DNA from: a virus
Virus record (IMG/VR): IMGVR_UViG_3300042549_003870
Span: 1-20,841 of that record
Reading direction: 5' to 3' (one strand)
DNA: 20,841 bases
Part shown: in pieces, positions 5,435 to 20,841 of the stretch
Position numbering within the stretch: the stretch's first letter is position 1
Layout of the letters: each line of letters begins with the position of its first letter
Translations under genes and position numbers: made by a program
Notes under the pieces: model-generated
What the model was told of the DNA's origin: nothing
Database searches by the model: none
What the model saw: only the letters and a program-made list of their open reading frames with translations

Positions 5435-5561
5435 CATGGCTACCAGCACTTACCTTTCCAACCCATCACTAACTGTTAATGCAGTTGATTTGTCAGACCA
5501 ATGCACATCAGCAACACTTACTGTCAAGTTTGACGCTCTTGAAAGCACTGCCTTTGGTGGT
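5435..5561 (+). repeat. 127-bp exact direct repeat, internal copy
   Basis: These 127 bases recur without a mismatch at 20715-20841, the very end of the window. The base before the repeat differs (A versus C). The length equals a common de Bruijn k-mer size, so the repeat marks an assembly-graph junction more likely than a biological repeat. Confidence 0.95.
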
Positions 5562-5846
5562 ACTTCTCGTGTTTATACAGCAGGTCTTGGAGACCATGAA
5601 CTTGTCTGTGAACTTTTTATGTCCTATGCGGCCTCGGAGACTTACAGCACTTTGAGCGCACTGGTGGGCACACAAACCACAGTGGTTATGAAGCCAACCT
5701 CATCGGCGGTCGGTGCAACCAACCCATCGTTCACATTGACAGGCACATACCTAGAGGCATTGCCAGTCATTGACGCAACTCTCGGAGAATTGTCAAGCAT
5801 CTCGCTTACATTCCGTGGCGGCGTTTACGCTGCTGCAGTCGCATAA
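5436..5846 (+). CDS. Major tail protein
   Basis: A 136-aa structural protein that would stack as hexamers to form the tail tube. It starts with a strong ribosome binding site (GAGGAG about 10 bases before ATG 5436). The N-terminal signature NAVDLSDQCTSATLTVKFD followed by ESTAFGG is the pattern seen in major tail proteins of small actinophages (a beta-sandwich tube fold, TLGELSSISLTFRGG near the C terminus). It lies directly before the tail assembly chaperone, the canonical order. The first 42 codons are repeated exactly at the end of the window. No domain insertion is present, so this is a minimal tube protein. Confidence 0.82.
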   Translation: MATSTYLSNPSLTVNAVDLSDQCTSATLTVKFDALESTAFGGTSRVYTAGLGDHELVCELFMSYAASETYSTLSALVGTQTTVVMKPTSSAVGATNPSFTLTGTYLEALPVIDATLGELSSISLTFRGGVYAAAVA

Positions 5847-5853
5847 AAAAACA

Positions 5854-5865
5854 AACAAAGGAAAC
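5854..5865 (+). promoter_or_regulatory. Ribosome binding block AACAAAGGAAAC (1 of 3)
   Basis: A 12-base block with an AAAGGA core lies a few bases before the chaperone start at 5871. The identical block occurs at 12176-12187 and 13151-13162, each just before a start codon that opens a gene cluster. Confidence 0.65.
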
Positions 5866-5870
5866 CCGAC

Positions 5871-6155
5871 ATGAAACTAGAACTTCGTGCTGACCTAGGC
5901 GAAGGCCCATTTACAGTAACCACCAACCTTTGGTGTGTCACCCAATGGGAACGCAAGTACAAGACCAAAGCGTCAGAGATGGCCAACGGTATTGGTATTG
6001 AGGACTTAGCGTTTCTTTGCTGGGCTGCTTGCCAAACCCATTCCATCGTGGTTCCGATTGTCTTTGACGATTTCATCAAGAAATTAGTGTCATTAGAAAT
6101 CGCAAGCGAGGACACTGACCGCCCTTTCTCCGAGGCACCTACCGACATTCCCTAG
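5871..6155 (+). CDS. Tail assembly chaperone, short (G-type) product
   Basis: The 94-aa protein sits between the major tail protein and the genes leading to the tape measure, the standard place of the chaperone that coats the tape measure during tail assembly. It starts with MKLELRADLGEGPFTV and has a helical middle (ASEMANGIGIEDLAFLCWAA), typical of the short partner in small actinophages. The start is set by the AACAAAGGAAAC block. A slippery heptamer near its 3' end allows a longer -1 product (see next entry). Identification rests mainly on position, size and the frameshift arrangement. Confidence 0.72.
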   Translation: MKLELRADLGEGPFTVTTNLWCVTQWERKYKTKASEMANGIGIEDLAFLCWAACQTHSIVVPIVFDDFIKKLVSLEIASEDTDRPFSEAPTDIP

Positions 6156-6256
6156 CGGCGGTGCTTATTGCCACAGGGTTTTGGCCACATGAGATAGAGT
6201 TCACCAGTGACGACCTCTCGACAGTCATCAAAATGATTAACGAAAGTCGAAAGTAA
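5871..6256 (+). CDS. Tail assembly chaperone, -1 frameshift product (GT-type)
   Basis: A -1 shift on C CCT TTC (6122-6128; zero-frame codons CCT, TTC; shifted codons CCC, TTT) joins residue 86 to a 42-codon -1 frame running from 6128 to the stop at 6254-6256. The product is about 128 aa. The extension (includes LAAVLIATGFWPHEIEF, then LSTVIKMINESRK) is free of stops and continues 100 bases past the zero-frame stop, filling an otherwise unexplained gap. The stop of the extension overlaps the next ATG as TAATG. This matches the conserved G/GT frameshift of siphophage tail genes. The exact slip site is inferred from codon geometry. Confidence 0.7.
6122..6128 (+). promoter_or_regulatory. Slippery heptamer CCCTTTC for -1 frameshift
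   Basis: In zero frame the site reads CGC CCT TTC, the X XXY YYZ form. After a -1 slip both tRNAs re-pair (CCC and TTT), and the -1 frame stays open to 6253. No other well-formed heptamer was seen in the overlap. Confidence 0.65.
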
Positions 6257-6777
6257 TGCCAGTAGATGTAACGATGGAGTTCTCAGGTCTAAAAGAGGCC
6301 CTGAAGGAAATTAACACCATTGACAAGAAACTGCGCCGCCAAATTACTCGTGACTTTACAAAGATTGTGCAGCCGGTATTAGGCAAAGCAGAGTCTTTAC
6401 TACCTAACGACCCACCATTGTCGGGTATGGCTCGCTCATGGAAAGGCAAGTCTGGCGCTGACATTATGTCTTGGAATGACCTGTTAGTACGCAAAAATCT
6501 TAAAGCCTTTACAAGCGGCAAAAAGATAAGAGACACAGGACTTGGTTTTAAACAAAACCTAGGCGTTTTTGGTATTAAATGGCTAGGGCCACAAGCAACC
6601 GCATTGGACTTTCTTGCCAAGGGCACAATGGGCAATAACCTAACTGCTCGCTTTGGGCCTCCGTCTCGTATTATTTATAAGGCTTACGAAGCAGCAGACG
6701 CCAAAGTACAAGCCGACGTTAAAGAACTTGTAAACAAAGTAATGAAAATGACTAACAGTGCAATGAGGATGAAATGA
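6256..6777 (+). CDS. HK97 gp10-like neck or tail protein
   Basis: The 173-aa basic protein has an N-terminal strand and helix (MEFSGLKEALKEINTIDKK, then RRQITRDFTKIVQPVL) and a C-terminal GPPSRIIYKAYEAADAKV region. This organisation is typical of HK97 gp10-like proteins, where a self-association helix is followed by an arginine-bearing segment and a long helix. Such proteins join tail to head or act in tail completion. Here the gene lies after the chaperone and overlaps the tape measure start (ATGA), unlike HK97, where gp10 precedes the major tail protein. The function is therefore a family-level suggestion. Confidence 0.55.
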   Translation: MPVDVTMEFSGLKEALKEINTIDKKLRRQITRDFTKIVQPVLGKAESLLPNDPPLSGMARSWKGKSGADIMSWNDLLVRKNLKAFTSGKKIRDTGLGFKQNLGVFGIKWLGPQATALDFLAKGTMGNNLTARFGPPSRIIYKAYEAADAKVQADVKELVNKVMKMTNSAMRMK

Positions 6778-8978
6778 GCGTAATTCTTAACATCGTCTCA
6801 GAATTTGACGCCAAGGGCATCAAACTTGCCCAGCGCCAATTTCAGCAACTAGAAAAAACAAGCGACAAAGTTGCCTTTGCCATGAAGCGAAGCATGGTTC
6901 CAGCCACTGCCGCACTGACAACGCTGGCGGCAGTTGCCTTCAAAGCCACCAAAATGGCCAGCGACCTTAATGAAGAAACCAGTAAAGCCAAGCAAATCTT
7001 TGGTGACGCCAGCGATTCAATCATTGCCTTTAGCAACACGGCTGCCACCAAACTTGGTCAATCTAAAACAGAGGCCCTAAAAGCCGCCGGCACTTTTGGT
7101 GTCCTTGGTAAAGCAGCAGGATTAACAGGCACCGACCTAACCACCATGTCCGTCAAGTTCACACAACTTGCAAGTGACCTGGCATCATTCAATAACACCA
7201 GCCCAGAAGATGCAGTATTGGCGTTAGGCGCTGGGCTCCGTGGTGAGGCAGAACCGCTTAGACGTTACGGCGTTTTGCTAGATGATGCCACGCTACGCCA
7301 AAAGGCTTTTGACCTTGAGTTAGTTAAAAGCACTAAAGAGGCATTGACCCCACAAAATAAGAGCCTTGCTGCACAGGCTGTAATTCTTGAAAAGACAGCG
7401 TTGCAACAGGGCAACTTTGCTTTGACCGCTAAGGATGCAGCCAACCAGCAACGTACCTTTACTGCCAAACTTAAAGACCTGCAAACACAAATGGGTGTCC
7501 TGTTCTTGCCTGTCTTAAAAGAAACCTTAGACACGCTGAATGATTATGCAGACGTCTTAATTTATTTAACCTCAAACACTGACAAGGCCAAGGATTCCAC
7601 CGGCAAATGGCTAGACCGATTTGTCAAACTTGCCGTAATAGTTTTACCTTTTGCCCAAGTCATGAAGGGCTTAGGAATTGTTGTCGGCAAAGTTAATGAG
7701 TATGTAGGCAACCAAGCCTCAGCGCTTAAACAAAACGAACGAGCCACAAGTCGAGTCACAAACAAGATTCAAGAATTGGCTGGCTTTGAAAAGTTGCTTC
7801 AAACAAAAGTTGATGACACCACAAAATCAACGGACAAATCTACAGCCGCTGCAAAGAAAAAAGCAGAAGCCTTAGCCAAAGGCAAAGAGGCTACCGCCAA
7901 ACTTAAAGCACAAATAGATGAACTTGCTGATGCTTTGCGTGGAAGGCTTAATGTCAGACTTGAAGATGCCCAAGAAAAACTAAAAGACGCACAAGACGCT
8001 TTTGATAATTTTGGCAAGAGTGTAGGCGCTGCTGTTACTGGTTCTTTTAATTTTGGTGCCGCACAATCTGAGGCGACAGGCAATGCCATGAGCCTTAAGA
8101 CCGCACTGGCTAAGCAAGCAGAAGCACAAGTAAAAGTAAACGACGCTTACAATAAATGGAGCGGCTTCCAGGACAAAGACAACCTAGATGCCCTGACAAT
8201 CTCGCAACGTGAACTGGCTGCAGCCACTGACGATGTAGCCATTGCACAGGCTAAGCCTCAGACTTTCTTCGAAAACTTAACTAAGCAGGCTGATAAGGCT
8301 AAAAAGTTTAGTGAGTTGGTCAGCAGACTTATGGCTGCCGACCTTAACGAAGGGGCATTGCAACAGGTTTTAGCAGCAGGAGTAGAGGGGGGAACCGCTA
8401 TTGCCGAAGAAATCCTTGGCTCCGCTGACGGTGTTCTAAGGGCTAATGACCTTACTTCTGCAATGCAAAAACTTGCAGATGATATGGGCAAACGAGCAGC
8501 CACAAAGTACTACCAAGCAGGCGTAGATTCGGCAACCAATTTCCTTAAAGGTATTAAAGACACAATTGCCAAGACCGAAATTGTGCTTGCAAATCCAAAC
8601 TTAACGGCAACAGACATAGCGCTTGCTGAGGCAGGTATATTTACTCCAGAAGATTTCCAATCCATTATGGCAAATCTCGGCAATCTAAACTTTGGCCTAC
8701 CTTTTAGTGTTGGCGGTATAGGAATCCCAACGATGATGGCTGACGGCGGTGTAGTTCGAAAGGCTACAAACATTGTGGCGGGGGAGTCCGGGCCCGAGGC
8801 AATAATTCCCCTCGACCGTCTGAGCAACATGGGCATCGGCGGCGGCATGAACATCACGGTCAATGCCGGACTTGTCTCTACGCCAGACCAAATCGGACAG
8901 GACATCATTCAGGCCATCCTTAAAAGCCAGAGAAGGTCAGGTGCCGTTTTTGCTCCAGCCACCGGACTGTCATTGTGA
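6774..8978 (+). CDS. Tail tape measure protein
   Basis: The 734-aa protein sets tail length; at about 1.5 angstrom per residue it predicts a tail near 110 nm. Residues about 60-260 match the TP901-type core (ASDLNEETSKAKQIFGD, LASFNNTSPEDAVLALGAGL, EAEPLRRYGVLLDD). A hydrophobic segment lies near 280-305 (LAVIVLPFAQVMKGLGIVVG). A Lys/Ala-rich coiled-coil stretch spans about 350-430. The C terminus near 655-680 has the frequent tape measure ending GGVVRKATNIVAGESGPEAI, then IPLDRL. The longest gene of the tail block, it starts within the gp10-like stop and ends overlapping the next GTG. Confidence 0.95.
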   Translation: MSVILNIVSEFDAKGIKLAQRQFQQLEKTSDKVAFAMKRSMVPATAALTTLAAVAFKATKMASDLNEETSKAKQIFGDASDSIIAFSNTAATKLGQSKTEALKAAGTFGVLGKAAGLTGTDLTTMSVKFTQLASDLASFNNTSPEDAVLALGAGLRGEAEPLRRYGVLLDDATLRQKAFDLELVKSTKEALTPQNKSLAAQAVILEKTALQQGNFALTAKDAANQQRTFTAKLKDLQTQMGVLFLPVLKETLDTLNDYADVLIYLTSNTDKAKDSTGKWLDRFVKLAVIVLPFAQVMKGLGIVVGKVNEYVGNQASALKQNERATSRVTNKIQELAGFEKLLQTKVDDTTKSTDKSTAAAKKKAEALAKGKEATAKLKAQIDELADALRGRLNVRLEDAQEKLKDAQDAFDNFGKSVGAAVTGSFNFGAAQSEATGNAMSLKTALAKQAEAQVKVNDAYNKWSGFQDKDNLDALTISQRELAAATDDVAIAQAKPQTFFENLTKQADKAKKFSELVSRLMAADLNEGALQQVLAAGVEGGTAIAEEILGSADGVLRANDLTSAMQKLADDMGKRAATKYYQAGVDSATNFLKGIKDTIAKTEIVLANPNLTATDIALAEAGIFTPEDFQSIMANLGNLNFGLPFSVGGIGIPTMMADGGVVRKATNIVAGESGPEAIIPLDRLSNMGIGGGMNITVNAGLVSTPDQIGQDIIQAILKSQRRSGAVFAPATGLSL

Positions 8979-10216
8979 GCGCCCCAACAATCCAAGTCTT
9001 AGTAGGGTTCCAGACCACCGCTGGCTTTGGGCAACCATTTCAATTAAACGATGCGGTGTACGGATTACTAGACACAGGCACCCTTGGCGGCCTTGCTTTT
9101 GCAGACTTAACTAGCCTTGTCGAATCTGTAAACATCACCCGTGGTCGTTCACGCCAACTAGACCAATTTAACGCTGGCACAGCCACAGTTTCATTTAACA
9201 ACTCAACACGAATACTTGACCCATTAAACACAGCCAGCATTTACTACCCATACGTTTTGCCACGATGCCCTATTCAAATCTTAGCCAATGGGATACCTAT
9301 CTACACAGGTTTAATTACTGATTGGAACCTTGAATACGACATTGCCAGCAACGGCGACAGAATGTACGCATCGTGCTCAGACTCTTTTACCGTCCTTGCA
9401 AACACAACCCTTGTGGCCCACACAGTCACACAGGAAAGCACCAACGCCCGTATAAACACAGTCCTTGACTACACAGAAGTTGCCTACCAAGGCGCTCGAA
9501 ACATTGGCACAGGTTCATCCACCTTAGGTGCTTCGGCATCATCTAGTGGCTTCAACATTGCAGATGGCACCAACCTGCTTACCTATTTGCAACTGGTAAA
9601 CACCAGCGAGCAAGGCTATTTATTTGTAGCGGCTGACGGAACCCTAACCTTTAAGGGTAGGTCTAGCGTTTTAAACCCTGTTGCCGGAGCCACATTTAGT
9701 TATACAGGCTCAATTTCATATCAAACTTTGCTCAATTCCTACGGTGACGAATTGCTTTACAACTACATAGTGACCCAAAGCCCTGCCGGCGTACAGCAAA
9801 TTGCTAGCGACTCAACCAGCATCAGCCAATATCAGTCACAAAGCCTTAACATCACAAACCTTTTAAACAGCACGGTTTCAGAAGTTGCCGGATTAGGCAC
9901 CTATTTACTAGGCAAATATAAAAACCCTGTTTTAAGATTTACCAATGTCTCAACCCAAATGGCTGCTTTATCTGATGCAAATCAAAACATAGCGTTAGCC
10001 CTTGATTTGACCAGCGTGGCAACAGTTGTAAAGAACTTTACTACTGGAACACCAAGTACGGAAAGCCAAACCCTTATTGTTTCAGGTGTGTCCCACAACA
10101 TAACGCCTTCATCCCATATTATTTCATATACATTTGAATCAACAGACGGCAATTCCTACCTTTCATTGGATGACCCGATATTTGGCACACTTGACAATAA
10201 TCTTTTAAGTTTCTAA
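8975..10216 (+). CDS. Minor tail protein (distal tail or baseplate hub)
   Basis: The 413-aa protein starts at GTG 8975, overlapping the tape measure stop (GTGA). It is beta-rich, with an N-terminal part containing GRSRQLDQFNAGTATVSFNN and the ILANGIPIYTGLITDWNLEY stretch. This pattern recurs in minor tail proteins of actinophages and resembles the distal-tail and hub proteins that follow the tape measure. The C-terminal half repeats Ser/Thr/Asn-rich strands and ends FGTLDNNLLSF. Only this gene and the fibre-like gene follow the tape measure, so it probably combines distal-tail and hub roles in one protein. No enzymatic motif was seen. Confidence 0.72.
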   Translation: MSAPTIQVLVGFQTTAGFGQPFQLNDAVYGLLDTGTLGGLAFADLTSLVESVNITRGRSRQLDQFNAGTATVSFNNSTRILDPLNTASIYYPYVLPRCPIQILANGIPIYTGLITDWNLEYDIASNGDRMYASCSDSFTVLANTTLVAHTVTQESTNARINTVLDYTEVAYQGARNIGTGSSTLGASASSSGFNIADGTNLLTYLQLVNTSEQGYLFVAADGTLTFKGRSSVLNPVAGATFSYTGSISYQTLLNSYGDELLYNYIVTQSPAGVQQIASDSTSISQYQSQSLNITNLLNSTVSEVAGLGTYLLGKYKNPVLRFTNVSTQMAALSDANQNIALALDLTSVATVVKNFTTGTPSTESQTLIVSGVSHNITPSSHIISYTFESTDGNSYLSLDDPIFGTLDNNLLSF

Positions 10217-10227
10217 AGGAGACACAA

Positions 10228-10785
10228 ATGACAGTTAGTACAGCAACTACATCGGGGCAGATTCTGACTTCGGCGTATCTTAATAACAACATAAATTCAG
10301 GTCTGACATACATCAGCACCACGGCACTGTCTGGCAGTAGCGTCTCCATTGCAGGATGCTTTAGCAGTACCTATGACCAGTACCTCGTGGTCTTGAATAA
10401 CGTGACAACTACCGCTAGTTGTACGCACTTGATTCAGTTTGCTACTGGCACCACCGATGCTGGCGCAAATTACGGCAGGCAAAGACTGGCAGTTCAAGCC
10501 GCTTCTGTTTCAAGTACGGGCTCAGTTAGCCAAACAAGCGGAACGTGGGGACAAACGACCGCAGGTAATGGTTCTTTTTACAAAATGGAAATATCTCAAC
10601 CCAACCTTGCCCGCAGAACTTTTGTCAATACACAGGGTGTCTATTACGACTCCAGTTTTGCATATTTAGAAATCCAAAACGTTGCCCTTGACACTTCAAC
10701 TCAATACACAGGCATGGTCTTGACACCATCAGGAACTTCGTACACAGCAGGAACCGTAACCATTTATGGTTACCGAAAGGCGTAA
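10228..10785 (+). CDS. Tail fibre-like or receptor-binding protein
   Basis: The 185-aa protein starts after a good ribosome binding site (AAAGGAG about 8 bases before ATG). It is Ser/Thr/Gly-rich and strand-forming, with an N-terminal helix-like docking part (TTSGQILTSAYLNNNINSG) and a body containing GCFSSTYDQYLVVLNNV and a closing GTVTIYGYRKA strand. Such compact beta-sandwich proteins commonly end phage tail operons and carry host recognition. The position as last gene of the tail block supports this. Receptor binding is inferred; there are no identifiable catalytic residues. Confidence 0.6.
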   Translation: MTVSTATTSGQILTSAYLNNNINSGLTYISTTALSGSSVSIAGCFSSTYDQYLVVLNNVTTTASCTHLIQFATGTTDAGANYGRQRLAVQAASVSSTGSVSQTSGTWGQTTAGNGSFYKMEISQPNLARRTFVNTQGVYYDSSFAYLEIQNVALDTSTQYTGMVLTPSGTSYTAGTVTIYGYRKA

Positions 10786-10788
10786 CCC

Positions 10789-10911
10789 ATGAGCAACACA
10801 AACCTAATTATTGGCACATTTCACGATGTTTTCACAGGAGAAATCATTGTAAGAGAATTAACAGCAGAAGAAATTGCTGCAATGCCACAGGTTGAAACGC
10901 CAAATGAATAA
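10789..10911 (+). CDS. Small protein of 40 aa with acidic TAEE motif
   Basis: Begins four bases after the fibre-like gene stop. The protein reads MSNTNLIIGTFHDVF at its start and contains the segment VRELTAEEIAAMP. Short proteins with an ELTAEEIA segment often follow tail fibre genes in unrelated phages and resemble the C-terminal part of fibre assembly chaperones. A fibre chaperone role is only a suggestion. Its stop overlaps the next gene (ATGAATAA), consistent with a real translated frame. Confidence 0.55.
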   Translation: MSNTNLIIGTFHDVFTGEIIVRELTAEEIAAMPQVETPNE

Positions 10912-11083
10912 GCGAAATAGTCTTATTTTGTTTGTCTTTTTAGCATCGCTTACTGCTTGTGCAGACCGTGAACGTCTAAACTGCCCACCGATTAAAAACA
11001 AAGCCCTTTCGAGCGTCACTAACACAGTGGCAACCGAAACGACCATAGCCCCCCGATACGCAACAGGAGCAAAGTGCCGATGA
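10904..11083 (+). CDS. Small lipoprotein of the lysis cassette
   Basis: The 59-aa protein starts at ATG 10904, overlapping the upstream stop. It has a basic start (MNKRN), a hydrophobic stretch (SLILFVFLASLTA) and a lipobox LTAC with Cys19, followed by a short polar mature part of about 40 aa. This predicts lipid attachment at the cell surface. Position before the holin candidate and endolysin suggests a role in lysis. A small outer-spanin-like (Rz1-type) lipoprotein would imply a Gram-negative host, while in an actinobacterial host superinfection exclusion is an alternative. A longer upstream start at 10874 lacks the signal-peptide form and is rejected. Confidence 0.65.
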   Translation: MNKRNSLILFVFLASLTACADRERLNCPPIKNKALSSVTNTVATETTIAPRYATGAKCR

Positions 11084-11343
11084 AACCAGACAACAGACAC
11101 AGCAACGAAGAAATCAAAGCCCGAATCGTCATGATTGTGGCAATCGGCCTCACACTGTCATTCGTAGGTTCAGTGTTTACAATTTTGTACGGCCTACTAT
11201 TTGTGACTCAGCCTGAAAAAATGGCTGAGTTAGACGCTGCTCAAATATCAGTGCTTAGCAGTATGTTGCTTACATTGTCCGGTGGCCTTATCGGCTTGCT
11301 GGCAGGTAACGGCCTTAAAGACAAACCGAAAGACCCCCAATGA
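11080..11343 (+). CDS. Two-pass membrane protein, holin candidate
   Basis: The 87-aa protein starts at ATG 11080 (ATGA overlap with the lipoprotein; AGGAG about 10 bases upstream). A GTG at 11074 would sit too close to that site. Two hydrophobic segments, residues about 16-42 (IVMIVAIGLTLSFVGSVF and on) and about 57-77 (SSMLLTLSGGLIGLLAG), are separated by a short acidic loop. Both ends are charged, and the C terminus is KDKPKDPQ. Size, topology and placement two genes before the endolysin fit a class II holin that triggers lysis. No family-specific motif was recognised. Confidence 0.62.
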   Translation: MKPDNRHSNEEIKARIVMIVAIGLTLSFVGSVFTILYGLLFVTQPEKMAELDAAQISVLSSMLLTLSGGLIGLLAGNGLKDKPKDPQ

Positions 11344-11597
11344 AAACCACTGTTTACACAGTCGGCGCAGTAACACCAGTGCTAATTCACAGCACCAGTT
11401 TTGGCAGTCAAACCATTTATGTTCAGAGCACCACGCAAGACATTCACCTTGGTGGCTCTAATGTCTCCAGCGCTCAGGGTCTCGATATCCCCAAATTGGG
11501 CTTTCAACAGATATTCCTTGACGAGCAAGAGACCCTTTACGCTTTAGCGGCTACCGGAACGGCGACAGTTAAAGTGCTGTCCCCATCTAACTCATGA
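11340..11597 (+). CDS. Small beta-rich protein of unknown role
   Basis: The 85-aa protein overlaps the holin candidate stop and the endolysin start (both ATGA). It is predicted to be all-beta, with the segment TQDIHLGGSNVSSAQGLDI, then ETLYALAATGTATVKVL. Comparable small proteins occur in phage structural or lysis regions and look like a single beta-sandwich, perhaps a decoration or fibre-attached protein. It carries no signal peptide or membrane segment. Its location between holin and endolysin gives no firm function. Confidence 0.6.
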   Translation: MKTTVYTVGAVTPVLIHSTSFGSQTIYVQSTTQDIHLGGSNVSSAQGLDIPKLGFQQIFLDEQETLYALAATGTATVKVLSPSNS

Positions 11598-12049
11598 CCG
11601 TCAGGCCATACCCCTACTACCCAAGTTTTGACGGCAAAGGCACAAAGCCGGTCACAAGCAAACTGGTTGAATTAACAAAAGCCAGATGGGGGCTAGTCTC
11701 GCTGGGCACCTATGCCAATAGGCCAATGCGAAACAATGCAGGACTATCAGTACACGCCACCGGCTACGCAGCAGACCTTCAATACAAAGACGAAGCGCAA
11801 GCGCGTGTGATTTGGGACTGGTTCCTAGCCAACAGCGCAGCCCTTGGATTATGTGAAATGCACTGGTACGCGTATGGTTCTTATGGTGCTGGATACCGCT
11901 GTTCACGCGGAGAAGGCAAGGCAGGCGTTAAAATCTTTACAGAAACTGACAACGCAGGCTCTTATCAAGGCAGCCCAAAATGGTTTCATATTGAGTTGGC
12001 AAAGCAAACTCCGGAACACTTTGAGCAAGTCTTTCGAGCGTTAAAATAG
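11594..12049 (+). CDS. Endolysin, M15-type zinc peptidase
   Basis: The 151-aa enzyme would cleave the peptide part of peptidoglycan. It carries the M15/VanY-type zinc site SVHATGYAADLQY (His54, Asp61) and a downstream WFHIEL with His132, giving the His-Asp-His metal triad expected for D-Ala-D-Ala or L-Ala-D-Glu peptidases. A separate cell-wall binding domain is absent, as is a signal peptide, so export through the holin is expected. The start overlaps the upstream stop. It is the last gene of the late operon, and structured non-coding DNA follows. Confidence 0.85.
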   Translation: MTVRPYPYYPSFDGKGTKPVTSKLVELTKARWGLVSLGTYANRPMRNNAGLSVHATGYAADLQYKDEAQARVIWDWFLANSAALGLCEMHWYAYGSYGAGYRCSRGEGKAGVKIFTETDNAGSYQGSPKWFHIELAKQTPEHFEQVFRALK

Positions 12050-12053
12050 GACT

Positions 12054-12080
12054 CCCAGCCACTGTTTGAGCGGTGCTGGG
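12054..12080 (+). terminator. Imperfect hairpin after the late operon
   Basis: CCCAGC and GCTGGG (12054-12059 and 12075-12080) pair, extended by AC/GT across a one-base bulge. It lies five bases after the endolysin stop. No T-run follows, so termination is uncertain. Confidence 0.4.
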
Positions 12081-12084
12081 GCTA

Positions 12085-12127
12085 GGTGGGGGGCGGTAGT
12101 TTGTTTCCATTGGCGAAATCCCCCACC
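12085..12127 (+). repeat. Inverted repeat GGTGGGGG / CCCCCACC
   Basis: Perfect 8-bp G/C-rich arms at 12085-12092 and 12120-12127 enclose a 27-base loop in the gap between late and early genes. It could be a bidirectional terminator, an operator or a replication-related structure. Confidence 0.55.
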
Positions 12128-12143
12128 GACTTCTCAAATTGTG

Positions 12144-12149
12144 TATAGT
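12144..12149 (+). promoter_or_regulatory. Possible -10 element (TATAGT) of the early operon
   Basis: A TATAGT hexamer lies about 40 bases before the first early gene, directly after the inverted repeat. No convincing -35 hexamer is present at the usual distance, so the promoter would need an activator or a relaxed -35. Confidence 0.3.
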
Positions 12150-12175
12150 AAATCCAAGCCACTCAAATGGCTCTT

Positions 12176-12187
12176 AACAAAGGAAAC
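12176..12187 (+). promoter_or_regulatory. Ribosome binding block AACAAAGGAAAC (2 of 3)
   Basis: It sits three bases before ATG 12191 and decides that start over the in-frame ATG at 12167, which has no ribosome binding site. Confidence 0.65.
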
Positions 12188-12190
12188 AAA

Positions 12191-12775: not shown

Positions 12776-12783
12776 AACGCATC

Positions 12784-13162: not shown

Positions 13163-13164
13163 AA

Positions 13165-14063: not shown

Positions 14064-14144
14064 GTGTTAGACCTTTTCAGCCTCATCATCATGCTCAGTG
14101 CAGTGTTCATGTGCGGCTTTATGCTGGGCAAAGACAAACGATGA
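14064..14144 (+). CDS. Mini membrane protein, 26 aa (2 of 3)
   Basis: A GTG start directly follows the upstream stop (TAAGTG), and the frame ends in an ATGA overlap with the nuclease gene. The product is one hydrophobic helix (LFSLIIMLSAVFMCGFMLG) with a basic KDKR end. It is below usual annotation cut-offs and is supported by perfect packing between its neighbours. Confidence 0.5.
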   Translation: MLDLFSLIIMLSAVFMCGFMLGKDKR

Positions 14145-14455
14145 ACGACATAAGCGAGCAAGCATTTCTGCAGCAGATAAAAGCCCTGGCATACGTCCAT
14201 CATTGGACTGTCCATCACTCTCAGCCGTCCATGACTAAGACAGGCAGATACATAACTACTGGCAGCCCTGGATTCTTTGACTTAGTGCTTGCACATGAGC
14301 AGCGTGGTCTTATCTTTGCCGAACTAAAGACACGAACAGGCAAGGCCAGCGAGGCCCAACTAAGTTGGATGCGCATAGTGCACCCTCATGCTGAGGTTTA
14401 TCTATGGCGGCCAGAGGACATGGACTTCATTACTAAGCGCTTAGCATCATGCTGA
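14141..14455 (+). CDS. VRR-NUC family nuclease
   Basis: The 104-aa protein starts at ATG 14141, chosen for the ATGA overlap; a longer start at 14111 would run through the mini membrane gene. It has the PD-(D/E)xK-type core of VRR-NUC proteins: GSPGFFDLVLA with Asp47, GLIFAELKT with Glu61 and Lys63, and a later SEAQLSW with Gln73. Stand-alone VRR-NUC domains are frequent in phages and act as structure-specific nucleases, probably resolving branched DNA before packaging. Its pairing with the annealing-type gene upstream suggests a small recombination module. Confidence 0.82.
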   Translation: MNDISEQAFLQQIKALAYVHHWTVHHSQPSMTKTGRYITTGSPGFFDLVLAHEQRGLIFAELKTRTGKASEAQLSWMRIVHPHAEVYLWRPEDMDFITKRLASC

Positions 14456-14520
14456 TACTGGCCTGGTACGTCCTGCTACTGTCCATTGGCATTGCCATCA
14501 TCCAAGGCTTACGCAAGTAA
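14449..14520 (+). CDS. Mini membrane protein, 23 aa (3 of 3)
   Basis: ATG 14449 lies inside the end of the nuclease gene. The product is a single hydrophobic helix (MLILAWYVLLLSIGIAIIQ) with a basic GLRK tail. It is the last frame before a 302-base gap. The repeated form (helix plus basic tail) matches the mini proteins at 12528 and 14064. Confidence 0.45.
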   Translation: MLILAWYVLLLSIGIAIIQGLRK

Positions 14521-14822
14521 TTACCTTTTACAACTGAATACGACCAAGGGCCACATAGGGGATTGCACTCTGTTGGTATGCACACTACGGAAGTAGGGTC
14601 GAGCAGTGCGCCCCATTACCTGTGATGACTAACGTGAATGGCCGTGGGTGTCAGTCACTGTGCAGCGTCTAAACGTCATAAATACGAATGGTGTCCACTT
14701 CCCTATGGTGTCCGGCAACCTTGACCTACTTGGTCAGAACTGTGGGGAACACAAGCCCCAGACTCTCTCAGCACACAAGAGAGCAACCGCAGCGAAGCAA
14801 GGGCGGTAGTAACATCAGGCTT
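14521..14822 (+). other. Structured intergenic region before the terminase
   Basis: This is the longest non-coding stretch. It holds a 9-base direct repeat ATGGTGTCC (14688 and 14705), an imperfect hairpin (14622-14629 with 14650-14658), and three adjacent hairpins: TTGACC/GGTCAG at 14721-14737, TGGGG/CCCCA at 14743-14760, and CTCTCT/AGAGAG at 14763-14783. No tRNA or clear promoter was found. Its position just before the terminase gene suits a packaging site or late-gene leader. Confidence 0.5.
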
Positions 14823-16583
14823 ATGACATCCCCATACAACGACCCCATCTACAAAGCAAACAGACGCCAGATACTAAGCGACGGCAAAGCAACCATCTGT
14901 GCCCTATGCGGCAAGCCAGGAGCCAACACAGCAGACCACATAGTCAGCCTCATGTTCGGAGGCGACAACAGCATTGACAACCTCCAACCTGCCCATCAGT
15001 CATGCAACTCACGCAAAGGTGCAGCACAACAAAACAAACGAGCAGCCGCACAAAACCTAAACCGTTCACAGACAAACGCACCACCGATTACGCAAGAACC
15101 AGCAAAAAACAAAAACATGGATTTTTTTACGGAGAACCGACAAACCCCGACCCTTATTTCTTCCGTATTTTTTGGGGAAACTGGGGAATCTGACGGTCAT
15201 GATTGGCGAGTGGGCAGGGAAAAGCCTCGGTTGGAATCGGTTGGGGTTGGGACTGAGAGTTATGGCCCTTTGGTTGCTGCTTGGGCTGAGCGTCACATGA
15301 AGATGACTTTGATGCCGTGGCAGGTTCATGCGTTGTCTGGGCAACTTGCTCATGATGGTGATGGTGTTTTGCAGTTTCGTGAGGCGTTGTGCAGCACAGC
15401 GAGACAAGCCGGAAAATCGGTCGCTCTGCAGGCGTTATGTGGGTGGTGGATTACTGAGGGTGCGGTGCTTCGTGGCGGCCCACAGTCAGTTATGAGCGTT
15501 GCTAACAAACTAGATAGGGCTGAGGCCATCTTTCCTTTGCTTGCCAACATCCTTGTGGAGTCCTTTGGCGGTAAAAAGTTTCAGGCTGTAGGCCGTAAAT
15601 CTGTTGAAATGCCGGACGGTTCACGTTGGGAGATTCGTGCCGCAACTAAGTCTTTGCATGGAGGCAGTCACGATTTGATTATTTGTGATGAGTTATTTGA
15701 TATAGATGCTGAGGTGGTGGACGCTGCTTTGCGCCCTAGTCAGATTGCTCGAAAGTCTCCGCTGCTTTCTATGTGGTCTACAGCCGGAGACCAGCACAGT
15801 GAAACGATGATTAAGTTACGTCAGCAGGCCATGGCTGACATTGACAAAGGCATTCCTAGCCTGTTTTATTTTGCTGAATGGTCTATGCCGTCGCACCTGT
15901 CACCGCTGGATGAAAAGAATTGGTGCTGGGCTAACCCATCTTTGGGGACAACTATCACTATTGAGGCTCTTCGAGCAGTGTCTAAAAAAGACAGTTTCAT
16001 GCGTGCGCACCTAAACCAATGGATTACGGCTAGGGGGGCTTGGCTGGATTTGGGTGTCTGGGAGAAGAATCAGACAGATATTCCTATGCCAGATGGTGGG
16101 TATTTATCTGTGGATAGTTCTGTGGATGACGCTCGATATGTTGGTGTCAGGGCTGTAGAACTAGACGGCAAAGTCATAGTGCACACAGAGTTTGTGGTAG
16201 AGACCGAAGCAGATATGTGGACAGCCATTGAAAGAGTTATGGAAAACCCACAAGTGCATCTGCTAATAACGCCAACGCTCGATATTCATGTTCCATTGTC
16301 TTTACGCCGGCGCACAACCATTACCGGATATGCAGAACTAACAAAGTTCACAACCCTTGTGCGGTCAATGATTCACGAAGGCAACGTCAAACACCACGGC
16401 GAAAGCCTGCTGGCTGACCACGTTTCAAGGGCAGTCCTAGTCAAAACACCATCCGGTGCAGTCATTAGTTCCCAGAAATCACCAGGCCCAATAGAACTTT
16501 GCCGCGTCATGGTGTGGGCAGTGGCCCAAGTTTCTAAACCAAAACAAAAGACTAAACCTATGATGGTTGTCATTGGTGGCTAA
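14823..16583 (+). CDS. terL: HNH endonuclease-terminase large subunit fusion
   Basis: The 586-aa protein joins two packaging activities. Residues 1-66 are an HNH nuclease: Cys26 and Cys29 (ICALCG), ADHI with His39, Asn53, then His58 and Cys61 in PAHQSCNSRKG. A polar Gln/Asn/Lys linker runs to about residue 125. The ATPase has Walker A ARQAGKS (193-199), Walker B LIICDE (285-290) and MWSTAGD (317-323). The nuclease domain starts at YLSVDSS (Asp431), with Asp532 in LLADH a likely later metal ligand. An in-frame ATG at 14688 would add 45 residues lying over the hairpins, so 14823 is preferred. HNH proteins beside terminases are known to be needed for packaging; a fused form is uncommon. Confidence 0.88.
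   Translation: MTSPYNDPIYKANRRQILSDGKATICALCGKPGANTADHIVSLMFGGDNSIDNLQPAHQSCNSRKGAAQQNKRAAAQNLNRSQTNAPPITQEPAKNKNMDFFTENRQTPTLISSVFFGETGESDGHDWRVGREKPRLESVGVGTESYGPLVAAWAERHMKMTLMPWQVHALSGQLAHDGDGVLQFREALCSTARQAGKSVALQALCGWWITEGAVLRGGPQSVMSVANKLDRAEAIFPLLANILVESFGGKKFQAVGRKSVEMPDGSRWEIRAATKSLHGGSHDLIICDELFDIDAEVVDAALRPSQIARKSPLLSMWSTAGDQHSETMIKLRQQAMADIDKGIPSLFYFAEWSMPSHLSPLDEKNWCWANPSLGTTITIEALRAVSKKDSFMRAHLNQWITARGAWLDLGVWEKNQTDIPMPDGGYLSVDSSVDDARYVGVRAVELDGKVIVHTEFVVETEADMWTAIERVMENPQVHLLITPTLDIHVPLSLRRRTTITGYAELTKFTTLVRSMIHEGNVKHHGESLLADHVSRAVLVKTPSGAVISSQKSPGPIELCRVMVWAVAQVSKPKQKTKPMMVVIGG
15122..15128 (+). other. T7 run at the HNH-terminase junction
   Basis: Seven T bases read as GAT TTT TTT in frame, giving the heptamer T TTT TTT. 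A -1 slip would add about 21 codons and terminate at a TGA, releasing a free HNH protein. Whether slippage occurs is unknown. Confidence 0.35.
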
Positions 16584-16592
16584 ACTGTCGGC

Positions 16593-16633
16593 GGTATTGC
16601 TTTGGGCGTTGTCGGGATGAGCAGAGCAATACC
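16593..16633 (+). promoter_or_regulatory. Conserved hairpin between terminase and portal (copy 2)
   Basis: The arms GGTATTGCTTTG and CAGAGCAATACC enclose the same 17-base loop as at 1462-1502. Relative to copy 1, one stem base changes in each arm, and both changes keep pairing (C-G to U-G, U-G to U-A). Confidence 0.7.
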
Positions 16634-16667
16634 ACAATTCTCTAACTGAAAGTGGCATACTTCCATC

Positions 16668-17927
16668 ATGGCTATCTTCAACAATAAAGTCACCAAGGCT
16701 GCAATTAGCCCAATGCCCAAAGTGCAAGCCGCAGTGGGGTACTCGCCTGTAGGCACATCATCCAACCCTGTGATGAACTTCTATAACTATCTAGAAGGCC
16801 AGCAGCGTAACCAGGCCATGACTTTGGCAACGGTTTCACGCAGTAGGGACTTACTTGCCTCTGTCATTGCTTGTATGCCGTTGAAAATGTACAGCGAAAA
16901 GTTTAATAATGAATCTGGCGAAATGGAAGAAACACCATTAGCGCCAAAGGATTGGCTACGTCAGCCAGACCCAAGCAACACATACAACTTCCTTATGGCT
17001 TGGACGTTGGACGACCTCCTATTTTATGGCAGGGCTATGTGGGTAATTCTTGAAAGGGATGCCTCTGGGTACCCTTCAAAGTTCCGTCGTTTGCCTATGG
17101 GCTCAATCACAACACAAGACCAAACAGGGCCAGTGTTCTTTGGGCCGTCAGAGTCCATCATGTTTGCCGGCAACGAAATGGACTATCGAGACATTGTCCA
17201 GTTTATTAGCCCTATCCAAGGCATCATCTACAGTTCTACACAGACCATTGCTACAGCCTTGAAAGTAGAAGATAGCCGCTACAACTACGCCAGGTCGTCC
17301 ATCCCGTCTGGCGTTTTGCGTCAAAACGGAGGCGAACCATTGTCAGCACAAGAACTTGGCGAAATTGGTGCTGCCTTTAATCAGGCGCGTTTGACTAGCC
17401 AGACTGCAGTTCTTAACGAGTTCTTGACTTACGAGCCGAGCAATGCCACCCCAGACAAGATGCTTATGATTGAGTCTGCACAGTATTCGGCCTTAGATTT
17501 GGCACGCCTATGTGGAGTTCCCCCTTACCTTGTAGGCGTTGCCACTGGCTCTTATGCCTACACCAGCAGCGAACAGTCACGCGCTGACCTGTACATCTTT
17601 GGTGTTAAGCCCTACGCCGACTGCATTGCCGCCACTCTCAGCATGAACAATGTTTTGCCTCGTGGAACTTACGTCAAGTTTGACACAGACAGTTACTTGG
17701 AAGAGAACTACGCAGCAGACGCAATGCCTAGCGGCGACGAGACAACTGACGTCTCAGCAATGCAAATAGCCGAAGTAATCCAAAAGGTTTACCTTGGTGT
17801 TGGAAAAGTAATAACCTCAGACGAAGCCAGAGCAATCGTAAACCTTGCAGGCGGCGACCTAAATATCCCTAACAATGGCGTGCCATTTGCAATGCCAACC
17901 CAAGTGAAAGACCAAACAGCATCATGA
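16668..17927 (+). CDS. Portal protein (copy 2, full length)
   Basis: The 419-aa HK97-type portal shares its core with copy 1: SRSRDLLASVIACMPLKMY, DWLRQPDPSNTY, GVPPYLVGV, SSEQSRADLYIFGVKPY and NNVLPRGTYV. After the shared core it carries a further C-terminal segment (MQIAEVIQKVYLGVGKVIT, then DEARAIVNLAGGDLNIP) typical of longer portals. The ATG at 16668 follows the hairpin and a conserved GAAAGTG stretch. The stop overlaps the protease-capsid start (ATGA). The mid-region between the copies is clearly diverged, more than in the terminase. Confidence 0.92.
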   Translation: MAIFNNKVTKAAISPMPKVQAAVGYSPVGTSSNPVMNFYNYLEGQQRNQAMTLATVSRSRDLLASVIACMPLKMYSEKFNNESGEMEETPLAPKDWLRQPDPSNTYNFLMAWTLDDLLFYGRAMWVILERDASGYPSKFRRLPMGSITTQDQTGPVFFGPSESIMFAGNEMDYRDIVQFISPIQGIIYSSTQTIATALKVEDSRYNYARSSIPSGVLRQNGGEPLSAQELGEIGAAFNQARLTSQTAVLNEFLTYEPSNATPDKMLMIESAQYSALDLARLCGVPPYLVGVATGSYAYTSSEQSRADLYIFGVKPYADCIAATLSMNNVLPRGTYVKFDTDSYLEENYAADAMPSGDETTDVSAMQIAEVIQKVYLGVGKVITSDEARAIVNLAGGDLNIPNNGVPFAMPTQVKDQTAS

Positions 17928-19522
17928 TTAGATTAACCACCAGCACATTTTCTGTAGATGCAGCAGCCGGCGACGGAGTAGCAAAGCGCACCATTACTGG
18001 AATTGCATTGCCTTACAACACTGAGGCCATGGTTTCAGGAGGCCAAGTCGTTTCATTCCTGCCAGGGAGTTTGCCAACCACCGGCAAAAAACCAAAACTT
18101 TACATGAGCCACGACTCAACGCAAGCCATTGGTATTGTCACCGAGCGCACAGACGACCAAGACGCTATGTACTTCACAGCCAAAGTAAGCACCACAGCCC
18201 TTGGCGATGAAGCCCTAATCTTGGCGTCAGACGGCGTTTTAGACTCTGTGAGCGTTGGCGTAAACCCAACTGACTACAGTTTTAACGAAGATGGCGTCAT
18301 GATTATCAAAGCAGGTGATTGGCTCGAATTGTCACTGGTACCCCAGCCAGCCTTTAGCGGTAGTATCATCACAGATGTTGCAGCGAGTATCCCCACATCA
18401 GAGGATGATTTAAGCAATAATACAGAAACGGCACCCGACGAGCCAGAACCCACAGAGTCAGAGGAGACCGAAGTGTCAGAAACCCCAGTTCCAGAAGTAA
18501 TCGAAGCAGCAGCACCATTGTTTGCAGCAGCCAAGCGTGAACCACGTTTGCCAACTGCCGGCGAATTTGTAGCAGCAATGCACAAGGGTGGCGAAGTAGC
18601 CGCAGCAGCACAGCGCATTTTTGCTGACTATCGCGCATATCACCGCAATCCAATCGAAGCCGCCGCTGGCGACAACGTCCTCAGTAACGACGCAGGCATC
18701 ACGCCGGTTCCCATTTTGGCCCCCGTTTTCGAGGACATTAACTACATCGCTCCAGTGTTGTCAGCACTCGGGACAAGGGCAATGCCAAACAGCGGTGCAG
18801 GTTCTACGTTCATTCGTCCTACCTGGACTACTCACCCGACCGTTGCGCAGCAGACAACAGAACTTACAGCAGTGTCAGCAACCACCGCTGTAATTGCCTC
18901 AAATACCGTTACCAAAGTGACATTCTCGGGCAGTGCCCAGTTGTCATACCAGGTACTTGACTTCACAGACCCCAACGCCATGGACATCATCGTTCGTGAC
19001 CTTGCAGGCCAGTACCTCACAGCCATTGACAATTACGCAGCAGACAACTTGCTTGCAGCAGCATCTTCTGATGGAGTGTGGGACTTGTCAGTAACTGACT
19101 TAATGAAGTCAATCTACGACGCAGCAGTCACAACTTCTGCAGCAACCAACTACCTGCCAACACACATCTTTGTAGACCCAGCAACATGGGGTCTGATGGG
19201 ACAACTTGTGGATACCACAGGCCGTCCAATCTTCCCAAGCATTGGTGCACCAGGACTTATGGGCATGAACAGCCTTGGCGCAGGCCAGGCAACATCATGG
19301 TCAGGTATGAACCCACTTGGTTTGCAAATCGTAGTGGACAATAAGTTTGCCGCAAAGACCATGATTATCATGAACCAGAATGCGTTTGAAATTTACCGTC
19401 AAGACCGTGGAATGTTGTCAGTAGAAGTACCTTCAACACTTGGCCGTCAGATGAGCGTGTTCGGGTACGCAGCAACATTCGCTGCAAACTCAAGCATGAT
19501 TCGCAAAATCACTCAGGCTTAG
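17924..19522 (+). CDS. Prohead protease-major capsid fusion (copy 2)
   Basis: The 532-aa homologue of the protein at 2628 has the same two-domain design. The protease domain shows His63 in YMSHDSTQAIG and Ser110 in LDSVSVGV, with ELSLVPQPAFSGS. The acidic linker (about 160-190) is Glu/Pro/Thr-rich and differs in sequence from copy 1. The capsid part contains RPTWTTHPTVAQQTTELTAV, NYAADNLLAAASSDGVWDLS, HIFVDPATWGLMGQLVDTTG and the same MIRKITQA end. Linker and surface segments vary most; the capsid core motifs are kept. Conservation of both active-site residues in two diverged copies argues that the fused protease is functional. Confidence 0.9.
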   Translation: MIRLTTSTFSVDAAAGDGVAKRTITGIALPYNTEAMVSGGQVVSFLPGSLPTTGKKPKLYMSHDSTQAIGIVTERTDDQDAMYFTAKVSTTALGDEALILASDGVLDSVSVGVNPTDYSFNEDGVMIIKAGDWLELSLVPQPAFSGSIITDVAASIPTSEDDLSNNTETAPDEPEPTESEETEVSETPVPEVIEAAAPLFAAAKREPRLPTAGEFVAAMHKGGEVAAAAQRIFADYRAYHRNPIEAAAGDNVLSNDAGITPVPILAPVFEDINYIAPVLSALGTRAMPNSGAGSTFIRPTWTTHPTVAQQTTELTAVSATTAVIASNTVTKVTFSGSAQLSYQVLDFTDPNAMDIIVRDLAGQYLTAIDNYAADNLLAAASSDGVWDLSVTDLMKSIYDAAVTTSAATNYLPTHIFVDPATWGLMGQLVDTTGRPIFPSIGAPGLMGMNSLGAGQATSWSGMNPLGLQIVVDNKFAAKTMIIMNQNAFEIYRQDRGMLSVEVPSTLGRQMSVFGYAATFAANSSMIRKITQA

Positions 19523-19529
19523 TCAGAAA

Positions 19530-19543
19530 GGCGGTAAGCCGCC
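19530..19543 (+). promoter_or_regulatory. Hairpin over the connector ribosome binding site (copy 2)
   Basis: Identical in sequence and position to the hairpin at 4243-4256 (GGCGG-TAAG-CCGCC directly before the ATG), although the capsid genes around it have diverged. Confidence 0.55.
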
Positions 19544-20182
19544 ATGGCTACATACACAGTCACTTTCAAGCAACTGCTAGACAACTATGCAGTGCTACAA
19601 ACACTGACCAACACAGAGATAGCGGTGGGGCAACCCATCACTATCGCTGGTGTTGCAGTGCCTTTTAACGGCACCTTTACTGTTTATGCACAACCAGAGT
19701 TTGAATACATTGGAATAGACACCGAAGGTAATTTGTTATTTGACAATAACAATCCAATACCTAACCAAGTTTTGTTTGCTTGCACAGGTGACAACGTGGA
19801 ACGTGTGGCTTCAACTGGTGGCACTATTGCTTATACCCAGGTCTGCACATGGACCACAGTCCAACAATTGGAAACATATCTCGGGGTGGACATTACAGAC
19901 CCAAGCGATGACTACACCTTGCTCACACAATCTGTCTCAGCGGCAAACGCTTTCTGCTGGAGACGCAGGCAGGAGTCCGGTTACACCGGCGATGCACTCG
20001 GAACCTCACCAGGCGGTGACTGCACCTTGGGCGTCCTAATGTACGGTGCCGCTCTGTGGCGCAGCCGTGGCAGCGTGCAAGACACTTTTGCCACATTCGA
20101 CGGAATGGGCTCTGCAGGCGTCTCAGCGATGACTCCAATGATTAAGCAACTCTTGGGCATCTCACGCCCCCAGGTGGCGTAG
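19544..20182 (+). CDS. Head-tail connector, with N-terminal beta domain (copy 2)
   Basis: The 212-aa homologue of the protein at 4257 has the same layout: an N-terminal beta-rich domain (MATYTVTFKQLLDNYAVLQ, IAVGQPITIAGVAV) and a helical adaptor half (QQLETYLGVDITDPSDDY, AANAFCWRRRQESGYTG, LMYGAALWRSRGSVQDTF). The C-terminal 40 residues are almost identical to copy 1 (FATFDGMGSAGVSAMTP, then IKQLLGISRPQVA), while the N-terminal domain is strongly diverged. This fits an inner surface held fixed by portal and tail contacts and an outer domain free to vary. It overlaps the next GTG start by one base. Confidence 0.72.
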   Translation: MATYTVTFKQLLDNYAVLQTLTNTEIAVGQPITIAGVAVPFNGTFTVYAQPEFEYIGIDTEGNLLFDNNNPIPNQVLFACTGDNVERVASTGGTIAYTQVCTWTTVQQLETYLGVDITDPSDDYTLLTQSVSAANAFCWRRRQESGYTGDALGTSPGGDCTLGVLMYGAALWRSRGSVQDTFATFDGMGSAGVSAMTPMIKQLLGISRPQVA

Positions 20183-20544
20183 TGGCCTTTACAGACCTTC
20201 TCAACGAAGCCATAGACGACGTGGCAGCCAAGATAGCCACAGTCGCAGGCATCAGGGTTGTAACCGACTCGACAAAGATTGTGCCTAATTGTGTCTTTGT
20301 GGACGCCCCATCTTTTACTACCTTTGCTGGCAATGGCAACATTCTTAACATCACCTTTCCCATTAAGGTCTTGGGCTCTGGCCCTGCAGGTCTGCCAGTT
20401 TTGCGTCAATTGCTAGACATCACAGCCAAAGTCATTTCGAGCAACGTCATAGTGATGAGCGGCCAACCAACGGCCTACCTTATTGGCGGTGCAGAATATC
20501 CCTGCTACGACCTAGTAGTATCCATACAAGCACAGACAGCGTAA
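20182..20544 (+). CDS. Probable tail terminator or neck protein (copy 2)
   Basis: The 120-aa protein starts at GTG 20182, which shares its G with the connector stop (TAGTG). It differs from the copy at 4901 at nine residues by eye (for example Y3F, P30S, T80I, N93S), mostly conservative, and both copies keep the same length with no indels. The function is inferred only from gene order between connector and major tail protein. Its near identity contrasts with the diverged genes before it and places the start of the homologous stretch around this gene. Confidence 0.55.
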   Translation: MAFTDLLNEAIDDVAAKIATVAGIRVVTDSTKIVPNCVFVDAPSFTTFAGNGNILNITFPIKVLGSGPAGLPVLRQLLDITAKVISSNVIVMSGQPTAYLIGGAEYPCYDLVVSIQAQTA

Positions 20545-20552
20545 GGCAGACA

Positions 20553-20711
20553 ATGTACACAATCATTTCCCCAAGAATCGGAACACCAGGCGACAAGTTT
20601 GAACCATCCGAAGAAACCAACATTGACGCCCTCATTGAAGGTGGCTTTATTAAATCCGACAAAACCCCAACCAAATCTGCTAAAACAGTAGAAACATCTC
20701 TCGAGGAGTAA
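20553..20711 (+). CDS. Small conserved protein of 52 aa (copy 2)
   Basis: Begins MYTIISPRIGTPGDKF at ATG 20553 and differs from the copy at 5272 at two residues (F2Y and P50L). Several synonymous changes in the DNA with almost no amino-acid change suggest that the frame is translated and under purifying selection. Its 3' end supplies the GAGGAG ribosome binding site of the major tail gene. Confidence 0.7.
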   Translation: MYTIISPRIGTPGDKFEPSEETNIDALIEGGFIKSDKTPTKSAKTVETSLEE

Positions 20712-20714
20712 CAC

Positions 20715-20841
20715 CATGGCTACCAGCACTTACCTTTCCAACCCATCACTAACTGTTAATGCAGTTGATTTGTCAGACCAATGCACATCAGCAACACTTA
20801 CTGTCAAGTTTGACGCTCTTGAAAGCACTGCCTTTGGTGGT
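20715..20841 (+). repeat. 127-bp exact direct repeat, terminal copy
   Basis: Perfect match to 5435-5561; the window ends at the last matching base. The spacing between the two copies is 15,280 bases. Confidence 0.95.
20716..20841 (+). CDS. Major tail protein, 3'-truncated by the window end
   Basis: The first 42 codons of the major tail protein are identical at the DNA level to those at 5436-5561. The reading frame is open at the window end. If the lasso reading of the assembly is right, this is not a second gene but the same gene as at 5436, reached again after one full turn of the genome. Confidence 0.85.
   Translation, partial: MATSTYLSNPSLTVNAVDLSDQCTSATLTVKFDALESTAFGG

Follow-up and report, generated by a model that had tools for sequence, protein, structure and literature searches.

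The window, i.e., the whole stretch of 20,841 nucleotides analysed here, raises a simple question: does one viral genome really carry two head modules, or have two genomes been written as one? It is very probably a chimeric lasso in which two co-occurring strains of a single small siphovirus group have been merged. The genome of strain B is present in full, linear and cos-ended, 15,280 bp long, with the cos located inside an HNH–large terminase (TerL) frame, whereas strain A would supply only the left arm (1–5434), beginning at its own physical left end. The features on which this reading is based are collected in Table 1.

Table 1. Features of the window, with positions counted from its first base.
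Feature	Positions	Strand	Support or remark
Strain A head-module arm: TerL, portal, fused protease-capsid, adaptor, two small genes	1..5434	+	
Strain A TerL, from the conserved TTG codon	94..1452	+	ORF; Pfam TerL_nuclease E=3e-6
Strain A portal	1537..2631	+	Pfam Phage_portal E=1.1e-28
Strain A fused prohead protease–major capsid protein	2628..4235	+	Peptidase_S78 E=2.2e-9; phrog_2263 major head protein E=8.5e-94
Sole exact run of at least 127 nt common to strains A and B; probable false-join site	5435..5572	+	
Right part of strain B genome: tail, lysis, small non-structural genes, HNH, cos	5435..15155	+	PHROGs, Pfam; single tape measure gene
Major tail protein	5436..5846	+	phrog_4574 E=5.4e-25
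Tape measure protein, diverged in the real continuation of strain A	6774..8978	+	tblastn match (E=2e-45) to tape measures annotated in actinophages
Single open frame HNH – linker – cos – leader – TerL, 586 aa	14823..16583	+	HNH E=1.2e-10; phrog_9 TerL E=8.4e-48
cos, 10-nt cohesive end CCCGACCCTT	15146..15155	+	Probable 3′ overhang
Strain B left arm, head module (TerL, portal, protease-capsid, adaptor genes)	15156..20714	+	
127-nt k-mer overlap	20715..20841	+	Identical to 5435–5561

Two Head Modules and a Repeated Contig End

The first 5434 nucleotides are a diverged second copy of the head module found at 15156–20714. Nucleotide identity between the two modules is 56–90% over most of their length and reaches about 98% directly before the merge. 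As proteins, the two portals are 63% identical, the protease-capsid fusions 53%, and the adaptors 66%, and the products of the next gene reach 92.5%. The strain A TerL is preceded by an in-frame leader (1–93), which is open. In a test of six marker genes, the window proved to contain two copies of the head genes and of the beginning of the major tail gene, and a single tape measure gene. The contig as written shows the order of a true genome of at least 20.8 kb in which the head module has been duplicated in tandem and has diverged. Such a genome is extremely unlikely, since no relative of at least 12 kb has two head modules (TerL and the major capsid protein occur as one copy each in all 45 other loci of this size, some of which duplicate the same record, and as two only in the window) and none was found above 15.8 kb. 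In addition, base 1 is a physical genome end, a cos lies inside the contig, and the arm continues differently elsewhere, as detailed below.

An exact copy of the last 127 nucleotides lies where the major tail protein gene begins, with no further occurrence in the window. The suffix of 128 nucleotides does not recur, the two copies differing at the 128th base: the bases directly before copy 1 (5435) are ...GAGTAACTCA, and those directly before copy 2 (20715) are ...GGAGTAACAC. Exact repetition over such a length at the end of a contig cannot have arisen by chance. It was not taken for a biological terminal repeat of 127 nt, since the window's family has a 10-nt cos at another place. The segment is an assembler end overlap, exactly k long and equal to an internal node, as in a k=127 de Bruijn chimera. 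The value 127 is a standard metaSPAdes maximum k, and 127 and 99 are both SPAdes k values. Two related contigs are self-closing with end repeats of 127 nt (L076) and 99 nt (L075), and in the related circular contig L084 the end repeat measures 123 nt, outside the standard k values. Contigs whose ends overlap by exactly maxK have been described (COBRA paper, PMC10914622), at branch points created by strains or shared sequence. The window likewise has an exact k overlap and breaks or joins where two populations share sequence, and its relatives close in the same way. Its overlap differs in pointing back into its own contig, a lasso form that results from the entry of a second strain's arm into a circular path.

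The Junction between the Two Strains

The exact run shared by strains A and B is 138 nt long, and the two strains are joined in the window because this length just exceeds k=127. The arm's head genes are present in three contigs from other metagenomes (L043, L089, and L091), with 100% identity or at most 2 SNPs across most of the matching stretch and near-identical spans of 2.2–5.6 kb. L043 remains within 2 SNPs of the window over 1–5572, and L089 and L091 are near-identical to the arm over their matching stretches. All three match the window through 5572 and depart from it at 5573, with differences at 5573, 5597, and 5618, to continue into a tail different from that of the window. For L089, identity to the window is 86% over 5594–5793 and 48–62% across most of the tape measure gene. 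Since the arm departs into a different tail in all three copies, it belongs to another strain.

The same boundary could be read as that of a natural recombinant, strain A in the sample really having the tail of strain B after a crossover at the conserved head–tail boundary; the strains would then share 5435–15155 and differ only in the head module. Identity between the head modules indeed climbs toward the boundary (72%, then 87%, 90%, and 98%), as a recombination junction would predict. Several distinct relatives contain the exact 127-mer, and A-type heads lead into two or more tails (L089 and L091 are the same for 501 nt past the junction, then show 43 differences in 761 nt). We nevertheless consider a recombinant improbable, because all three A-head copies from other metagenomes part from the window at the same positions just past 5572, and because the join falls exactly at the sole shared run of at least 127 nt, where a k=127 graph predicts a join without recombination. 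Even for a recombinant, the conclusions on the lasso contig and on the 15,280-bp cos genome would be unaffected, and only the word “chimera” would have to change.

In the preferred explanation of a two-strain chimera, the assembler would pass from A into B through their sole shared exact stretch longer than k (5435–5572), next cross the joined cos of strain B and read B's own head module, and halt on re-entry into the same 127-mer. The length of the loop is 20714 − 5435 + 1 = 15,280 bp. The linear genome of strain B would run from its left end at 15156 to 20714 and then on from 5435 to 15155, ending with the cohesive end CCCGACCCTT. Related contigs that have both genome ends, or that close into a circle, measure 14.7–15.8 kb. 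Nothing but the same 127-nt overlap closes the strain B loop, though L006 has the same head type (95.8%) on the same tail type (93% over 5562–6773). No tRNA was found in the tRNA search, and a host/prophage scan of 84,980 GTDB genomes returned no relative. The kinship of the window proteins to those of actinophages is distant only.

Most of this outline had been anticipated from the sequence. Comparison of suffixes bears out the exact terminal repeat with a differing preceding base, and the 127-nt overlap and shared run support a lasso joined over exactly k=127. The departure of the arm copies at 5573 agrees with the attribution of 1–5434 to an alternative strain, and the complete genome of 15.28 kb proposed for 5435–20714 is recovered. 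The true double head module, initially held to be less likely, is now rejected in view of the single module of the other contigs of at least 12 kb.

Fixed Genome Ends

Thirty-one related contigs begin exactly after a conserved CCCGACCCTT, 12 stop exactly before it, and 16 cross it, so that the same genome ends recur in independent samples. These 10 conserved nucleotides are absent from both ends of standard contigs. They are present in joined forms and at the adapter-bearing ends of L080, which stops on its right side at CCCGACCCTT followed by Illumina adapter, and shows on its left side a low-complexity tail and then CCCGACCCTT. This pattern fits a 10-nt overhang, probably 3′, lost in library preparation. 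The first base of the window (ATCTCGG...) is the same base where the 31 contigs start, and L043 starts at the identical base. Since contig starts are fixed after CCCGACCCTT, the genome of strain A has its true left end at base 1.

A circularly permuted headful (pac) genome would agree with the assembly of some relatives as circles (L075, L076, and L084) and with the 16 contigs crossing cos. It is very unlikely, since random ends would not place 31 starts and 12 stops at just two bases, one on either side of a conserved decamer; any circular or joined reads would stem from annealed ends, circles, or concatemers. With a single fixed terminus, the cos at 15146–15155, the virion genome is linear and unpermuted. 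The original prediction thus holds for the lasso, the foreign-strain head arm, and the disfavoured double module, but not for a “circular or circularly permuted” genome. It mentioned neither base 1 as the physical left end of strain A nor a cos within the HNH-terminase frame.

A Reading Frame Containing cos

The HNH nuclease at the right end of the strain B genome and the large terminase at its left end form one frame containing cos, which is split by cos in linear DNA. The frame is open in all 15 cos-spanning sequences examined, the linker length is a multiple of three in 27/27 cases, indels keeping the frame, and pN/pS is 0.41 after cos and 0.27–0.50 before it. The frame is under purifying selection. 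Among the left arms, a single apparent in-frame stop turned out to be a spurious match on the reverse strand of L091, and an AlphaFold model of the fusion with 14 close homologues was discarded (mean pLDDT 33). No small terminase was recognised.

Since cos lies inside this frame, packaging would cut the packaging gene itself: the terminase would cleave the gene encoding it whenever DNA is packaged, and annealing of the ends after injection would restore that gene. The chances look even that, in this uncultured, widespread phage group of about 15 kb, the packaging enzyme is a single HNH-large-terminase fusion whose gene contains cos and is intact only in circular or concatemeric DNA, with no separate small terminase needed. 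It is also possible, though less likely than not, that the frame is not simply one protein, HNH being translated into the TerL gene while a functional TerL also, or only, starts at an internal TTG codon about 31 codons past cos. Of 32 invariant leucine codons in the TerL gene, this one is the most constrained (TTG in 44 of 45 sequences), and a purine-rich AGGGAA-like stretch lies ahead of it in many sequences. However, the stretch from cos to TTG evolves like protein-coding DNA, as judged from the pN/pS after cos, and no cos-spanning sequence has a stop between HNH and TerL, which means that HNH translation must run on into TerL.

This compact packaging arrangement, an HNH–TerL frame with fixed cos ends inside it, was not found in the 50,697 isolate phage records searched. 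Neither a cos within a terminase gene nor an HNH–TerL fusion is described in the titles or abstracts that literature searches listed, although an earlier description may exist. The arrangement raises the question of whether one fused protein could recognise cos, cut it, and package DNA without a small terminase. As for the database record, its 20.8 kb overstates the genome by a second head module, and it should be split into a complete 15,280-bp genome and a partial strain arm. More generally, a conserved head–tail boundary barely longer than k can fuse strains in assembly.

Comparison with Known Phages

The closest counterparts in overall design are the small actinobacterial siphoviruses of 14–18 kb, such as Rhodococcus RRH1 (14,270 bp), Decurrovirus (Arthrobacter Maggie), Atraxavirus, Paopuvirus (Microbacterium Quaker), Gordonia Coeurvirus, and Ericdabvirus. 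They and the window are alike in genome size, broad gene order, and the fused protease-capsid gene (phrog_2263 and Peptidase_S78 in the window), with HNH as the last gene at the right end and TerL near the left end. 3′ cohesive extensions of 8–13 nt have been reported in phage sets including some of these small actinophages. TerL identity to the isolates found is only about 26–33%. In the small actinophage records examined, at least one gene lies between the end and TerL, annotated as a terminase small subunit in several Gordonia and Rhodococcus phages, and HNH stops before or shortly past the genome end. In contrast, the window's family has no gene at this place: its TerL frame opens directly at the left end and is continuous with that of HNH.

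Emperorvirus (Gordonia phages Emperor and SallySpecial) resembles the window in having an HNH gene annotated across the joined cohesive ends. Its HNH frame, however, ends about 93 nt past the joint, and a separate TerS gene precedes TerL. In HK97-type packaging, the HNH protein is said (Kala et al. 2014) to help terminase cut cos. The window departs from this scheme in that HNH and TerL form one reading frame and no TerS was recognised, whereas an HNH adjoining cos, probable 3′ cohesive ends, and a TerL of the same broad type are common to both.

Two head modules in one contig

The window ends in 127 nt that are identical to 5435-5561, with a mismatch at the 128th base, as the original prediction had it, and no further copy of this end repeat was found elsewhere in the window. 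The head genes were also rightly described as repeated in diverged form, the compared proteins being 53-92% identical between modules. At the nucleotide level, the identity of 1-5561 to the second head module (15156-20714, the left arm of the loop strain, strain B) is 56-90% along most of the alignment, and climbs to 98% in the final 250 columns. Conservation between strains is strong at the head-tail boundary, which may be a natural site of recombination where heads and tails are swapped; the exact 127-mer is present in several distinct relatives (L006, L089, L091, L093 and L098). A weak tail completion/Neck1-like gene has an unusual position, after the presumed tail chaperone gene and not before the major tail gene.

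Strain A, the source of the 1-5434 arm, could be traced in other samples. L043 (IMG/VR 3300042868_000255) has the same first base as the window and matches it through 5572 except for two SNPs, beyond which 11 of 79 positions differ. L091 and L089, from two additional metagenomes, carry the strain A head (100% along most of their length), and after the junction both first differ from the window at the identical positions 5573, 5597 and 5618; in L089, identity then drops to 86%, and to 48-62% over most of the tape measure gene. Strain A has therefore a different tail in these samples, which bears out the proposed merging of another strain's head module into the loop. The two strains have a single exact stretch of 127 nt or more in common, namely 5435-5572 (138 nt), so that with k=127 both heads must enter one node, where the contig would break or switch. 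Exact maxK end overlaps have been described for metaSPAdes (PMC10914622), and two relatives circularise through repeats of 127 and 99 nt, both SPAdes k values. The large terminase (TerL) and the major capsid protein are present in one copy each in all 45 other loci of at least 12 kb, some of which duplicate one record. The contig is concluded to be an assembly chimera; a natural recombinant limited to this sample is a possible but less likely alternative, given that heads of type A are followed by different tails in different contigs.

Fixed ends and a probable cos site

A TerL-protein scan of IMG/VR yielded a family of 64 related contigs. The same exact first base (ATTTC/ATCTC), directly after the conserved decamer CCCGACCCTT, is shared by 31 of them, 12 other contig ends stop directly before it (...CAAAC/...GAAAC), and 16 contigs cross it. 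The decamer served as search pattern, and its own conservation in the set spanning the cohesive-end site (cos) is thus partly by construction, unlike the exact termini flanking it, which are independent evidence. Contigs having both termini measure 14.7-15.6 kb. In L080 (15,804 bp), CCCGACCCTT is followed at once by the Illumina adapter AGATCGGAAGAGCACACGT at the right end, and is preceded by a low-complexity tail at the left end; low-complexity library tails are also retained before the cos end in L007, L034 and L035. The simplest reading is a linear, cos-ended genome, whose 10-nt 3' overhang is stripped from both ends by normal end repair. Microbacterium and Arthrobacter phages are reported to have 3' cohesive extensions of 8-11 and 9-13 nt (PMC7302621; PMC5513430). 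From the decamer position, the strain B genome consists of 15156-20714 followed by 5435-15155 (15,280 bp), and window base 1 is the physical left end of strain A.

Two distant TerL relatives (43-46%), L060 and L062, have an identical first base, AGGGGCTCTATCCCC, about 50-70 nt ahead of the TerL match, which suggests fixed ends in these two as well. The left end of L143 (1-60) seemingly reaches upstream of its cos, with an HNH C-terminus differing from that of its own right end; it is perhaps another strain chimera.

Positions of the features in the window
Feature	Position	Observation
Head-tail boundary	5294-5572
Tail completion/Neck1-like gene	6256-6777
HNH gene	ATG 14823, right end of the genome	HNH E=1.2e-10
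Decamer CCCGACCCTT	15146-15155
Leu codon of PRLESV motif	15243-15253 and 94-96	TTG in 44/45 sequences, a bias not shared by other invariant leucines

A reading frame across cos

The HNH gene has no stop ahead of cos, and its frame passes through cos (codons T-P-T-L-I) into TerL. This frame is open in 15/15 cos-spanning sequences examined, in all of which the two alternative frames are closed within about 180 nt past cos. It is also open in 44 true left arms and 27 right arms; the alternative frames are closed in the majority of left arms and in at least about half of the right ones. Linkers are of 32, 35, 38 or 47 codons, length differences being multiples of three only, and pN/pS is 0.27-0.50 before cos and 0.41 after it. 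In the more distant relatives L143 and L152, the HNH frame likewise reaches the right end without a stop, and the TerL frame has none from the left end on. Among the 32 invariant leucines, the strongest constraint falls on the PRLESV leucine codon, about 31 codons past cos. Judged from this codon usage, translation may also begin internally at this TTG and yield TerL by itself as a second product, or the codon may belong to a DNA recognition site close to cos.

An HNH helper takes part in cos cutting in HK97-type phages. No small terminase (TerS) was recognised by Pfam or PHROGs among the window proteins scanned, and a hit to one PHROG called terminase small subunit covered the HNH domain only. 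After injection, the 10-nt ends would anneal and be ligated, restoring the HNH-TerL gene, the protein of which would be made late. HNH and TerL would then jointly recognise cos in concatemers and nick it there, which cuts their own gene, and would package one genome unit.

Comparison with known phages

Searched against 50,697 phage records, the 586-aa fusion found no place covering 80% of its length. The closest known kinds are the small actinophages (RRH1, Coeur, Schiebs, EricDab, GMA5, McGonagall, Quaker, Maggie and Atraxa were compared), in most of which protease and capsid are fused in one gene and HNH is the last or nearly last gene. In Emperor and SallySpecial, an HNH gene is annotated across the joined cohesive ends, as the HNH frame spans cos here; unlike the HNH-TerL frame of the window, however, it stops about 93 nt beyond the joint, ahead of the TerS gene. 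The window family is thus not a small-actinophage member in every respect.
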